DNA of 64,000 bases from the NCBI RefSeq assembly GCF_000153205.1, contig NZ_CH672427.1, positions 793,394-857,393 of the forward strand, given 5' to 3'. The stretch comes from Nitrococcus mobilis Nb-231 (GTDB taxonomy: Bacteria > Pseudomonadota > Gammaproteobacteria > Nitrococcales > Nitrococcaceae). The notes below the pieces were generated by a model. It had not been told where the DNA came from. It was given only the letters and a program-made list of their open reading frames with translations, and ran no database searches. Shown piece by piece: positions 4,908 to 8,643 of the stretch. Both the position numbers and the translations under genes were made by a program. Numbering within the stretch: position 1 is the first letter of the stretch; the number at the start of each line of letters is the position of its first letter.

Positions 4908-4975
4908 AATTCTTGCTATTTCGAACAGCACCTTACGCGCACGACAGCGTCTTAGGGCTCGTCAAGGAGGCTTGG

Positions 4976-6412
4976 ATGGAGCGTCTATCTACAGGGGTCG
5001 ACGGGCTGGATGAAATTCTGCACGGAGGGCTCATCCCGCAACGCTCGTACCTGATACGGGGCGGGCCCGGCCGGGGCAAAACGACGCTCGGGTTGCACTT
5101 CCTCACCGCGGTCGATGACGGCGAATCCGCTTTGTTCATCGGTTTTCAGGAACCGGAAGCGCAACTGCACAGCAACGCGGCCTCGCTGGGAATCGACGTC
5201 TCGGCGATCAATTTCCTGAGCCTCGCTCCCGATGCGCAGTTCTTCACCGAGCAGCAAAGCTACGATGTCTTTGCCGCAGCAGATGTCGAACAACAACCGC
5301 TTGTCGAAGCGATTATACAGGCGGTAGAGCACCATCGCCCAACCCGCGTATTCGTCGATTCGCTATCCCAGCTGCGCTTTCTCGCCACGGATATTTTCCA
5401 GTATCGCAAGCAGGTGCTGTCATTTCTACGCTACCTTACCCAACAAGGCACGACCGTATTGTTCTCCTCCGAGAGCAGTCACGAATTGCCCGACGACGAC
5501 TTGCAATTCATCGCCGATGGCGTGATCAACCTGGAAGCGGGCGTTGCTGGACCGGTTATTCGAATATCGAAAATGCGCGGTTCGAGTTTCCGCTTCGGAA
5601 TGCATCACATGCGCGTCGCCGACGGCGGCTTGAAGGTCTTTCCGCGCATGATCCCGGCAAGCAGCCGGCAGGCCGGATTCCAGTTGCAGCGTTGGGGCAC
5701 AGGGGTAAAGAAAATCGATGAACTCCTACATGGCGGACTGGTGGCGAATACGGTTTCTTTGATTACCGGGCCATCCGGTACCGGCAAATCAACCTTGGCG
5801 GCTCTGTTCGTTGCCGAGGCGGCACGCCAGGGCCATCGGGCTTCGGTATTTCTGTTCGAGGAAGAAATTGCTTTCTTCCTACGCCGGGCGAAGGATCTCC
5901 ACCTGCCGCTGGAGGAGCCTTTTGCCGACGGCCGGATCTTGATCGAACAAATAGAGCCCATGCGTTATCTGGTCGACGAGTTCATCATGCGGGTGCGCGA
6001 ACAGATCGAGGAGGCTGGCGTCAAGATGGTGGTGCTCGACAGCGTGACCGGCTTCGAGGTCGCGCTGGGGGGAGAGTCCATTAGGGAGCGCTTGCACGCC
6101 TTCGCCAAAGGCTTGAGCCGCATGGGCATTACGATACTGTTGATCAATGAGATCGAGGCCACGACCGGAGCGTTCCGCGTCTCGGAGAAAAGCATCAGTT
6201 ATCTCTCGGACAACGTAATCTTCCTACGCTACATGGAGGTCGACGGTATGCTCAAAAAAGCGATTGGCGTTCTCAAGAAGCGGCTCAGCAGTTTCGACAA
6301 TCGACTGCACACATTCGAAATCGGCTCCCCTGGTGTGTTCAAAATCGGCGAGCCGATCCATGGCCTGCGTGGAGTATTAGGGGGAACCCCCATGCCGCAG
6401 GAAGAATCATAA
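4976..6412 (+). CDS. KaiC-like two-domain RecA-fold ATPase
   Basis: The 478-residue protein has two tandem KaiC domains. Domain 1 has Walker A GGPGRGKTT (29-37) and Walker B RVFVDSL (124-130). Domain 2 has Walker A GPSGTGKST (265-273) and Walker B VVLDS (352-356). The catalytic EE pair of KaiC is kept in domain 2 (FEEE, 294-297) but reads QEPE in domain 1. The KaiC autophosphorylation dyad Ser431/Thr432 aligns by eye with Ser408/Tyr409 (SISYLSD). The start at 4976 is chosen because AAGGAGG lies at 4964-4970; the open frame extends to 4913 without such a site. Its stop overlaps the ATG of the receiver gene by one base. No kaiA or kaiB is in the window. Likely a signalling ATPase; a clock role is not shown. 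Confidence 0.9.
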   Translation: MERLSTGVDGLDEILHGGLIPQRSYLIRGGPGRGKTTLGLHFLTAVDDGESALFIGFQEPEAQLHSNAASLGIDVSAINFLSLAPDAQFFTEQQSYDVFAAADVEQQPLVEAIIQAVEHHRPTRVFVDSLSQLRFLATDIFQYRKQVLSFLRYLTQQGTTVLFSSESSHELPDDDLQFIADGVINLEAGVAGPVIRISKMRGSSFRFGMHHMRVADGGLKVFPRMIPASSRQAGFQLQRWGTGVKKIDELLHGGLVANTVSLITGPSGTGKSTLAALFVAEAARQGHRASVFLFEEEIAFFLRRAKDLHLPLEEPFADGRILIEQIEPMRYLVDEFIMRVREQIEEAGVKMVVLDSVTGFEVALGGESIRERLHAFAKGLSRMGITILLINEIEATTGAFRVSEKSISYLSDNVIFLRYMEVDGMLKKAIGVLKKRLSSFDNRLHTFEIGSPGVFKIGEPIHGLRGVLGGTPMPQEES

Positions 6413-6771
6413 TGGCAGCGGCTATGATCCTGCTAATCATGAGAAAACCCGGCAACATACGGGTCATGCAGCATGCACTCGACCACCTCGGCCACTCGAG
6501 CAAAGGAATCTCCACTGAGGCGGAGTTGCAGGCGGCCTTGGCGGAGCCAATATCCCCGCGCCTGGGGGTGGTGGATGTGACTGATTTCAGCACCGATGTT
6601 TGGTCAATGTGTACCCGACTACAGAATCACAACATACCGTTCATCGTGCTCTCGGCACCGCAAACACTCAATCTCGACAACCACTCACTCGCTTATGGCG
6701 CCACCAGCGTTTTGCGCAAGCCGATTGCGAAGTCCGCATTGCTCCAGCTTATTCATGGCTTGGCGGCTTAG
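6412..6771 (+). CDS. Single-domain, degenerate response-regulator receiver
   Basis: This 119-residue protein has the length and alternating pattern of a CheY-type receiver. It keeps the phosphoacceptor-position Asp55 (LGVVDVTDF), a Ser81 at the Thr/Ser switch (FIVLSAP) and Lys103 (VLRKPI). The acidic pair that binds Mg near the first strand is missing: the strand end reads LLIMRKPGN. Phosphotransfer is therefore doubtful, and a phosphorylation-independent adaptor is possible. It overlaps the KaiC-like gene by one base (TAATG) and precedes the EAL gene by 126 bases, so it may bridge the ATPase and the phosphodiesterase. An in-frame ATG at 6424 is an alternative start. Assigned by pattern, not by a search. 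Confidence 0.72.
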   Translation: MAAAMILLIMRKPGNIRVMQHALDHLGHSSKGISTEAELQAALAEPISPRLGVVDVTDFSTDVWSMCTRLQNHNIPFIVLSAPQTLNLDNHSLAYGATSVLRKPIAKSALLQLIHGLAA

Positions 6772-6897
6772 GGCCGTTGATAAAAACCCGACTGATAAGA
6801 ACGCGGCCACACCACCTTGGCTAGGGGATATGCCGTAGTGACCAATACCGGCCTCTATTTCTCGAGATCTAGAGCCGGCCTGGAAAGGTGATCGACT

Positions 6898-8643
6898 ATG
6901 ATCCATCGCGATACTGCCCCCCGGGTTTGTTGGCGTGCCTCGAGCAGTAGCGTAATTTCAACCGAAGAGCTGACACCGTTGGATGAAAACGATTCCAAGC
7001 GAGTTCTGCTATTGGCGCGCTCGGGCGGCAATCGGGAGCAATTGTTGGCTCATCTGCAACGACGCTATGAGGTCATAGAGCCGGATGAGGCGGCGCTCTC
7101 CTTGGCACCGTTCGACCTCGCCGTCGTCGAGGCCACAAGTTTCTGGCAGTGGCGCCAACATCTCATGGAGGCCAAGCGGCGGGAAGAACCGGTCTTTCTG
7201 CCCGTGATGCTCGTCCTATCGCAGCGCGATGTCAGGCACAAACTCAATGCCTTTTGGGATGTGGTCGACGAGTTCGTCGTCGCTCCGATCAAGCGCCATG
7301 AATTCACGGAGCGCGCAGCCATGCTGCTGCGCACGCGCCAGCTGGCGCTGACCCAGCGGGCCCATCTGGCCTATTTGGCCAATCACGACCGCGCCACGGA
7401 TCTACCCAACAAACACCTGTTCATGGACCGGCTCATCAACGCGGTGCGCGATGCCGCCGTCCTCGATACACGGCTGTATCTAACGGTGATTCATATTCCA
7501 TTGACGCGGATTATGAAATCCTTGGGTCACCATGGGCTCGAGCGCGCTGCTATAGCATGCTCGGTACGCATCAAGGCGTTACTCGCAGAGGAACTCTCCC
7601 TAGCCAGGCTGACCACCGAGGAGTGGGGCCTGATCCCACGGCCGGGCACATCAATGGATGTGGTGCTCGAACTCTGCCGGCGCATTCAGGTGCTGGCCGA
7701 AGAGCCGATCACAGTGCTCGGCGAACACATCCACATCTCACCGCGAATCGGCATCGGAGTCTACCCGGACGACGCCGCCAATGCGGCAAACACGTTGGAT
7801 TGCGCCATCGCCGCATTGTCTCAGGCCAAAGCCGAGCAACCGGTTTTTTATTCGCGCACCGTCCAGCACCAAGCACTTCGGCACATCCGCACTGAGGCGC
7901 GTCTGTATCAGGCGCTCGATGAAGCACAATTCGAGCTCTGGTACCAACCTCAAGTGCATCTTAGTGACCGCCGCCCGGTCGGCGTCGAAGCGCTGATACG
8001 CTGGCGACTACCTAGCGGCGTGCTGGTGCCGCCGAAGGATTTCATGGCAGTGGCCGAAACCACCGGCCTGATCCGTGATATCGACCGCTGGGTGCTCGAT
8101 CGTGCTTGTGAAGCCATGCGCCGCTGGCGTAACACAGGTAATGCACCAGAGCGTATCTCGGTCAACGTCTCCGCCGAGGACATCAAGGCGGCCGACTTTA
8201 CCGAGATGATCGTACGCACCCTGGATCAACATCAGCTTCCACCACCCACGCTAGAACTCGAGCTAACGGAGACCACGCTGTTTGAAATAAGCGACAAGAA
8301 CTTAACCAAGCTCAATACCTTGCGAGAGTATGGAGTAAGTGTGGCGATCGACGATTTTGGAACCGGCTACTCCTCTTTGAGTTACCTGCATCGACTACCG
8401 ATCACCACTTTGAAAATCGACAAGGCTTTTGTCGACGATGTGACCCACAATCTGACCAATCAAGCCATTACTCGCACAATCGTCTGGCTGGCGAAGAACT
8501 TCAATTTGGAAGTCGTCGCCGAGGGTATCGAAACTGTAGAGCAGGCTCGTTACTTAAAATCGCTGGAGGTACACACTGGACAGGGTTTTTTGTATGGCCG
8601 CCCGGCTCCCGAAACGCTATTACGCCAGCGATTCTGCGAGTAG
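6898..8643 (+). CDS. Pseudo-receiver / degenerate GGDEF / EAL c-di-GMP phosphodiesterase
   Basis: The 581-residue protein has three parts. Residues 34-145 form a receiver-like domain with Glu78 where the phospho-Asp should be (DLAVVEA) and Ala129 in place of the conserved Lys (VVAPI). Residues 160-320 resemble GGDEF, but the signature reads TTEEW (239-243), so cyclase activity is unlikely. Residues 330-575 are an EAL domain with the expected catalytic residues: Glu364 (EALIRW), Asn423, Glu455, Asp485/Asp486 (IDDFGTGYSS), Lys506 (LKIDKAF), Glu542 (AEGIET) and Gln562. It should hydrolyse c-di-GMP to pGpG. GGAAAGG precedes the ATG. Same strand as the KaiC-like ATPase and receiver, so it is probably the output of that unit. 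It is convergent with the Nudix gene, only 6 bases away. Confidence 0.9.
   Translation: MIHRDTAPRVCWRASSSSVISTEELTPLDENDSKRVLLLARSGGNREQLLAHLQRRYEVIEPDEAALSLAPFDLAVVEATSFWQWRQHLMEAKRREEPVFLPVMLVLSQRDVRHKLNAFWDVVDEFVVAPIKRHEFTERAAMLLRTRQLALTQRAHLAYLANHDRATDLPNKHLFMDRLINAVRDAAVLDTRLYLTVIHIPLTRIMKSLGHHGLERAAIACSVRIKALLAEELSLARLTTEEWGLIPRPGTSMDVVLELCRRIQVLAEEPITVLGEHIHISPRIGIGVYPDDAANAANTLDCAIAALSQAKAEQPVFYSRTVQHQALRHIRTEARLYQALDEAQFELWYQPQVHLSDRRPVGVEALIRWRLPSGVLVPPKDFMAVAETTGLIRDIDRWVLDRACEAMRRWRNTGNAPERISVNVSAEDIKAADFTEMIVRTLDQHQLPPPTLELELTETTLFEISDKNLTKLNTLREYGVSVAIDDFGTGYSSLSYLHRLPITTLKIDKAFVDDVTHNLTNQAITRTIVWLAKNFNLEVVAEGIETVEQARYLKSLEVHTGQGFLYGRPAPETLLRQRFCE

Follow-up and report, generated by a model that had tools for sequence, protein, structure and literature searches.

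What could a clock-type ATPase do beside two altered receivers and an enzyme predicted to degrade cyclic dimeric guanosine monophosphate (c-di-GMP)? The question is raised by a single run of three plus-strand genes at 4976-8643 of the window, by which we mean the whole 64-kb stretch analysed here, from contig NZ_CH672427.1 of Nitrococcus mobilis Nb-231; coordinates are window positions unless they follow a locus label. The genes encode a KaiC-like ATPase, a single receiver (REC1), and a protein in which a pseudo-receiver (REC2) is followed by a dead GGDEF domain and an EAL domain. We found that this adjacency recurs in other genomes, where REC2 remains next to KaiC but can carry a different enzyme. 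On balance, we lean towards the view that the trio is the gammaproteobacterial form of a conserved cassette, KaiC + (REC1) + REC2-X, in which a REC2 adaptor would let the ATP state of KaiC gate the attached enzyme, here a phosphodiesterase; the contact and its direction are what we infer.

The locus had been picked out by an original prediction made from this DNA alone. On re-reading the sequence, its coordinates, strand and one-base gene overlap were all correct (the kaiC-like gene starts with the ATG at 4976 and stops with the TAA at 6410-6412, and the rec gene starts with the ATG at 6412). The domain make-up that it gave likewise holds: two KaiC domains; a receiver without the acidic pair; and a pseudo-receiver, dead GGDEF and intact EAL in one protein.

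REC2 stays with KaiC while its output changes

A KaiC alignment was used to scan public genomes; at least 595 entries matched the pattern, and of 523 related stretches the 80 that scored highest were taken as loci. Hidden Markov models (HMMs) of the two receivers, partly trained on sequences of these same loci, located REC2 on the kaiC strand, no more than 2.5 kb downstream of that gene, in 75 of the 80 loci, REC1 in 47 and both in 45. Two of the 75 REC2 calls are weak (L077, where the domain is split, and L110, at 30 bits). REC1 was not found in 30 of the 75 REC2-bearing loci, one of which is cut by a contig end. An independent tblastn search with the window proteins alone gave similar counts, with REC2 within 1.2 kb in 70/80 loci and REC1 within 300 bp in 44/80. 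The loci without REC2 are L043, at a contig end, L045, L055, L079 and L081; the genome of L045 has a REC2-EAL gene on another contig, near its start (109 bits).

The output that follows REC2 (n = 75) is a histidine kinase in 47 proteins, GGDEF in 10, dead-GGDEF/EAL in seven, HD-GYP in three and PAS/GAF domains only in four. GGDEF-EAL, GGDEF-HD-GYP and a SpoIIE phosphatase occur once each, and one output is cut by a contig end. Pfam was applied to 31 of these proteins, including 17 kinases, and agreed with the assignments; L102, which is cut, was assigned by HisKA alone. The lineages include gammaproteobacteria, cyanobacteria, Chloroflexota, delta-type bacteria, Thermodesulfobacterium, Thermodesulfovibrio and Actinoplanes, with many metagenome-assembled genomes (MAGs). 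Since the same gene order is found in other genera and phyla, it is not due to chance. The original prediction had been staked on co-occurrence in related genomes, and this is what we observed: REC2 accompanies KaiC also in loci with another domain instead of the EAL half, the exceptions being L055, L079, L081 and L043.

We also searched a class-level set of 276 genomes (≥90% complete) with REC2 and KaiC separately. REC2 matches of ≥72 bits (the next was 59) fell in five genomes (the source genome G000, G001, G275, G160 and G257), and KaiC matches with E ≤2.3e-180 (the next was 2e-116) fell in the identical five, 61-587 bp upstream of REC2 on the same strand. G000 and G001 are represented in the models, whereas G160, G257 and G275, whose outputs are all GGDEF-EAL, are not. 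At E 1e-30, KaiC matches were present in 29 of the 276 genomes in all.

The exchange of outputs was followed on a quick IQ-TREE tree of 90 KaiC rows, with the Shimodaira-Hasegawa-like approximate likelihood ratio test (SH-aLRT) as sole support measure; one row is long (L050) and ten are of odd composition. The tree was built without L043 and L044 (same contigs as L033 and L034) and without L101 and L122 (whose kaiC occupies two frames); L046 replaces L035 for Arhodomonas. Eleven EAL rows and two unlabelled rows form one group (SH-aLRT 100), five GGDEF-EAL rows form one group (100), and GGDEF falls into two separate groups (100 each). Among the labelled rows the output changes at least 11 times.

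The SpoIIE-type phosphatase fused to REC2 lies beside kaiC in a Chthoniobacteraceae MAG (L091 9610-10695), the sole case among the 75. At L063 (3594-5908), REC2 is followed by PAS only and an HD-GYP domain lies in the next, overlapping open reading frame (ORF), so that the output may be divided over two proteins. Two loci with long ORFs, L088 and L116, were considered as candidates for a natural fusion of KaiC with REC2 and rejected; in neither of these two loci is the ORF in the KaiC frame.

The original prediction had also noted the lack of kaiB and of a histidine kinase nearby. KaiB (PF07689) was unmatched in the whole 3.6-Mb source genome, with a profile that was above its cut-off in one of 14 control genomes and "ringing" in six, including S. 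elongatus. A histidine-kinase ATPase HMM made from six proteins gave no match of ≥25 bits in the window. Both statements thus stand for this genome and window. However, the lack of a kinase is confined to this branch: histidine kinases are the most frequent of all the outputs (47/75), and a parallel kaiC-kinase pairing was already reported in 2011 (PMC3164672).

The core is a pair rather than a trio

The family set comprised 23 genomes, including the source genome, in which the window protein has a single KaiC match. All three genes occur in order in four of them (the source genome, G003, G004 and G001). In the Nitrococcus MAG G005 (L034/L044), kaiC abuts the receiver-EAL gene without rec and the contig stops inside the EAL gene; in a second Nitrococcus MAG, G006 (L033/L043), the contig stops 185 bases past kaiC. 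No rec match was found in G005 or G006, both of which have kaiC. By eye, one frame after kaiC in G006 (L033 6740-6936) resembles the end of rec, like a stump, and L034 1-400 (G005) lacks rec1. As kaiC is kept where rec1 looks like a stump or is absent, rec1 was apparently lost recently within the genus. One close relative thus does without the single receiver, which makes the KaiC + REC2 pair the core: the claimed trio does recur in order among relatives, but REC1 is optional.

In G022 and G007, kaiC is followed by a protein with a pseudo-receiver, GAF, GGDEF and EAL domains, in which the GGDEF motif is intact. Distant KaiC matches in the family reach at most 30% identity over long matches, with higher values on short stretches. 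Two family members carry a more distant KaiC, 24-27% identical to the window KaiC, adjoining PAS-GGDEF-EAL genes with no REC2 match (L040 6719-11733; L041 4494-8387); this is possibly a second, independent KaiC/c-di-GMP pairing.

The receivers are degenerate and may retain a phosphorylation step

Against Pfam PF00072 the window rec protein scores 21.3 bits, under the curated cut-off of 30.2, and M10-R11 occupy its acidic-pair positions. We counted REC1 residues in 50 rows, comprising all 47 REC1 loci and three of the genus. Both acidic residues are present in 0/50 and one in 15/50, with the window protein having neither; Asp55 and Lys103 are each kept in 50/50, and the Ser/Thr in 44/50. The REC1 model (predicted local distance difference test, pLDDT, 87) has the receiver pattern, and its top VIA-align match is Spo0F (Z 17.7, 115 residues, 1.9 Å).

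REC2 is more divergent in its active site. Pfam found no receiver in the third protein, while residues 35-152 of its predicted structure have the receiver order of strands and helices with alpha-2 absent. In 80 rows, the beta-3 position is Asp in 67, Glu in the four Nitrococcus rows, Gly in seven, Cys in one and Ser in one; the Lys position has Lys in six, Arg in one, a gap in one and other letters in 72. The six rows with the receiver Lys are all of kinase type (L067, L072, L076, L086, L089 and L094). One row set was without L073, L088, L103, L107 and L120 for REC2 and without L120 for REC1. The REC1 and REC2 profiles are related (hhalign probability 97%). Among the best 60 of 82 PDB matches to the REC2 profile, the top ones are PleD (2.7e-16; its two receivers at 29 and 31 bits) and other receivers. 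As both PleD receivers match about equally, we dismissed the idea that REC2 is the second PleD receiver, and only a likeness of layout is claimed. A KaiB/SasA-like identity, the 2011 paper's idea for its Nt domain, was also dismissed for REC2, the predicted order and profile matches being receiver-type.

Both receivers are therefore degenerate, REC1 lacking the acidic pair throughout and REC2 usually lacking the Lys, which fits the original prediction of signalling by contact rather than by a normal phosphorelay. That claim is weakened by the REC1 Asp and Lys (50/50) and by the Lys in 6/80 REC2 rows, all kinase-type. A phosphorylation step might thus remain via the REC1 Asp/Lys and most REC2 Asp residues, less so in the window REC2 with its Glu78 and no Lys.

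Such a step would suit an ordinary two-component input: REC1 would receive a phosphoryl group at Asp55 from an orphan histidine kinase encoded elsewhere, and in that form would act on either KaiC or REC2-EAL. Single receivers are frequently served by distant kinases, and the invariant REC1 Asp and Lys, the Ser/Thr in 44/50 rows and the REC2 Asp in 67/80 (with Lys in 6/80) are as this model would have them. Nevertheless, we consider it unlikely: no REC1 row has both acidic residues and only 15/50 have one, the two Nitrococcus relatives with kaiC have no rec match, REC1 was not found in 30/75 REC2 loci (one cut by a contig end), and the window REC2 has lost both residues.

KaiC retains both ATP sites

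The KaiC-like protein has two PF06745 stretches (Pfam, 4.1e-70) and its top PDB match is KaiC 8zn5 (4.5e-54). Over 86 KaiC rows, the Walker A Lys is present in 86/86 in both domains and the Walker B Asp in 85/86 and 86/86, so both ATP sites are retained. The phosphosite Ser (S408) is kept in 84/86 rows and followed by Tyr (Y409) in 84/86; in the alignment to solved KaiC this pair corresponds to the phosphosites, S431/T432 in Synechococcus numbering.

These residues invite a timer, where autophosphorylation of the KaiC homologue at S408, and possibly at Y409, would serve as an oscillator or slow hourglass, and c-di-GMP would vary with the time of day through the EAL output. The near-invariant Ser and the Walker A Lys in both domains are consistent with this, and an hourglass has been proposed for the kaiC-histidine-kinase pair (PMC3164672). 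The second site is, however, Tyr rather than Thr in 84/86 rows, and KaiB is unmatched in the genome, which makes a timer rather improbable.

The output is a predicted phosphodiesterase

Pfam detects EAL (2.6e-72) and a weak GGDEF (1.4e-12) in the third protein. The window EAL domain has E364, N423, E458, D485/D486, K506, E542 and Q562, which we take to be the catalytic residues, and in the ten aligned dead-GGDEF/EAL proteins the EAL residues are kept in 10/10 and the GGDEF motif is lost in 10/10. By its residues, the EAL domain is a predicted c-di-GMP phosphodiesterase; by its TTEEW motif, the GGDEF domain would not be fit as a diguanylate cyclase. The protein model (pLDDT 88.7; predicted template modelling score, pTM, 0.66) aligns with MorA over its GGDEF-EAL part (VIA-align: Z 41.9, 416 residues, 3.5 Å), a search with the full-length protein that hardly probed the REC2 part.

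This dead-GGDEF/EAL version (L046-L050, L058, L109 and L162) is found in Arhodomonas, Modicisalibacter, Vreelandella, Saccharospirillum, Marinobacter and Ectothiorhodospiraceae MAGs. These hosts are mostly salt-loving or marine, and the habitat may matter. Modicisalibacter luteus has the entire trio twice, in closely similar versions on separate scaffolds (L047 2657-6254; L048 8001-11628).

Signalling could also run in reverse, with REC2-X as the sensor (a PAS/GAF kinase or a c-di-GMP-binding EAL) that reports to KaiC as the effector. PAS or GAF domains do occur in 18 of the 31 Pfam-checked REC2 proteins, four of these 18 lack an enzyme domain, and EAL domains can bind without cutting. Yet the EAL catalytic residues are all kept (10/10), and the catalytic domains found as X are of five kinds, one SpoIIE phosphatase among them, which looks like an exchange of outputs. 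We regard the reverse direction as quite doubtful. That the genes are neighbours by operon convenience, with no joint function, is very unlikely given the adjacency across many lineages and the matching of the strongest KaiC and REC2 hits in 276 genomes.

Related pairs on plasmids and in haloarchaea

A tblastn search of plasmids gave KaiC-like matches in 235 records, of which eight neighbourhoods were opened. Two Haladaptatus plasmids have kaiC then REC1, at 90 and 96 bits (L154 5442-5810; L160 4951-5313), and a Haloferax larsenii plasmid has kaiC then a REC2-kinase, at 101 bits (L155 5482-6555). On the Cupriavidus, Agrobacterium, Sphingobium and Azospirillum plasmids, kaiC is followed by a kinase, with the KaiC sites TY, TY, SY and SF, respectively; the REC2 HMM has no match in these kinase N-termini, and hhalign relates them to REC2 at 80% and to REC1 at 94.5%. 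We take these four alpha- and betaproteobacterial pairs to be of the "dark-blue" kind defined in 2011. KaiC-REC fusions are reported from six archaeal genera, so KaiC-receiver coupling has precedent (PMC5847659).

A model for KaiC output through REC2

We return to the gated cassette. Because REC2 is constant and the enzyme variable, REC2 is likely the adaptor between KaiC and the enzyme. KaiC would be an ATP-driven ring whose nucleotide state, and perhaps phosphorylation state, tracks the condition of the cell. REC2 would dock on KaiC and, depending on its state, cause the attached enzyme to pair or to change orientation. Enzymes of the histidine kinase, GGDEF, EAL and HD-GYP types generally work as dimers, and as most of the attached enzymes are dimeric, control by KaiC of their pairing or orientation is the simplest mechanism that all could share. 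In the source genome the EAL domain would hydrolyse c-di-GMP as the output, and the dead GGDEF domain would serve as a linker or relay. REC1, a similar receiver on a protein of its own that some close relatives lack, probably either supports REC2 at KaiC or competes with it there.

Several observations weigh against this model. The 80 loci were chosen as the best-scoring of 523 by similarity to a gammaproteobacterial KaiC. A search for REC2 in the L055, L079 and L081 genomes yielded nothing beyond generic receivers (best 49, 39 and 47.5 bits, respectively), and the G006 assembly gave no strong REC2 (best 34 bits); 15 of the 23 family genomes have distant KaiC matches only, or none. Four outputs have PAS/GAF domains alone. 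The universal Asp and Lys of REC1 would be odd if it were never phosphorylated, and REC2 mostly keeps its beta-3 Asp, with the Lys in few rows. KaiC distances in 45 of the 47 kinase loci (without L077, split REC2, and L102, contig end) correlate with those of REC2 at r 0.66 and with those of the kinase ATPase domain at r 0.47, but zero lies within the bootstrap interval for this difference. Lastly, on an Acaryochloris plasmid a related kaiC lies beside a receiver-kinase on the opposite strand whose receiver looks ordinary.

More tentatively, pseudo-receivers might be general readers of KaiC-family ATPases outside the classical clock, working without phosphotransfer and with pluggable enzymes, in bacteria and haloarchaea. 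Cellular energy or time would then be tied to histidine-kinase signalling, c-di-GMP synthesis or destruction, or protein phosphatase activity. If the pseudo-receiver is the reader, the function of these KaiCs would be directly testable by binding and enzyme assays with exchangeable outputs, and c-di-GMP networks would have an ATPase-based input of which no description was found in open-licence PMC papers. Judged from sequence, the cassette points to a putative, widespread signalling route for clock-like ATPases.

Features of the locus

The features are collected in Table 1. The gap between rec and the EAL gene is 126 bases. A promoter and terminator scan gave no signal exceeding that in shuffled sequences.

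Table 1. Positions of genes, domains and sequence elements in the window
Feature	Position	Strand	Basis
Probable ribosome-binding site of the kaiC-like gene, AAGGAGG	4964..4970	+	Direct sequence reading
Two-domain KaiC-like ATPase, 478 amino acids, both Walker A/B sets intact	4976..6412	+	Pfam, PDB match, conservation
S408-Y409 codons, aligned with the KaiC phosphosites	6197..6202	+	Alignment to solved KaiC
REC1, stand-alone degenerate receiver, 119 amino acids; Asp55 and Lys103 kept, acidic pair lost	6412..6771	+	
Imperfect 13-nt palindrome CTCTATTTCTCGAGATCTAGAG in the gap that separates rec1 from the EAL gene	6853..6874	none	
REC2-GGDEF*-EAL protein, 581 amino acids (asterisk, degenerate domain)	6898..8643	+	
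REC2 pseudo-receiver domain, common to different outputs; beta-3 Asp is Glu78, no Lys	6997..7356	+	
Degenerate GGDEF domain, TTEEW replacing GGDEF	7378..7836	+	Pfam, alignment
EAL phosphodiesterase domain (predicted), catalytic residues intact	7900..8604	+	

Comparison with known systems

In the cyanobacterial clock (KaiABC with SasA, CikA and RpaA), output passes via a partner protein that reads the state of KaiC. The window KaiC resembles that of the clock in its two domains and intact ATP sites, and differs in that KaiB is unmatched in the genome and the second phosphosite is Tyr409, with S408 kept. PleD (REC-REC*-GGDEF) uses a receiver and an adaptor receiver to control a dimeric c-di-GMP enzyme. 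The layout of a receiver pair is shared, and both PleD receivers are among the profile matches of REC2, but the window receivers are on separate proteins, both degenerate and with a KaiC ATPase as partner. RocR has a phosphorylatable receiver, no GGDEF domain and no KaiC partner. As in RocR, the window receiver lies ahead of EAL, and Foldseek and VIA-align matches span REC2 to EAL (model residues 32-581).

SasA has a KaiB-like domain, whereas the presumed reader here is receiver-type by strand and helix order and by profile, a distinction drawn without direct comparison to SasA or KaiB. According to a 2017 survey, the KaiB-like domain is missing from SasA homologues outside cyanobacteria (PMC5520375). 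BcsE combines a KaiC-like domain, REC* and GGDEF* in one chain, has a degenerate ATP site and binds c-di-GMP for cellulose secretion (PMC7439463); the window proteins share its worn-down domains in matching order. BcsE as a fused descendant of the cassette was dismissed at the sequence level, with no HMM match above chance and hhalign <1% with E. coli BcsE (a single sequence).

In the accessible text of open-licence PMC papers, including those on Ferrovum, Leptolyngbya Dgc2 and the "minimal tool set", neither the KaiC/REC1/REC2-X cassette nor its c-di-GMP outputs were found described. The original prediction, which knew of no described system with this exact set, is to that extent upheld, but a parallel exists in the kaiC-kinase pairing of 2011. 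There, Ramlibacter and relatives (the "dark-blue group") have a kaiC/Nt_HK pair, shown by RT-PCR (reverse-transcription PCR) to be cotranscribed, whose Nt domain was proposed to bind KaiC (PMC3164672). Like these pairs, the window has an SY/TY/SF-type KaiC site, no kaiB, and directly after kaiC a signalling protein whose N-terminal domain is distinctive; unlike them, its partner is GGDEF*-EAL rather than a histidine kinase. The four plasmid KaiCs presumed to be of the Nt_HK type are 32-37% identical to the window KaiC. A third, heterogeneous group in that paper has kaiC near a receiver, or near histidine-kinase or GGDEF/EAL proteins, but not presented as a module. The paper also lists the SY-type outliers NOC_1328, Caur_0239 and rrnAC0131, which from their names and site type are probable members of the cassette family.

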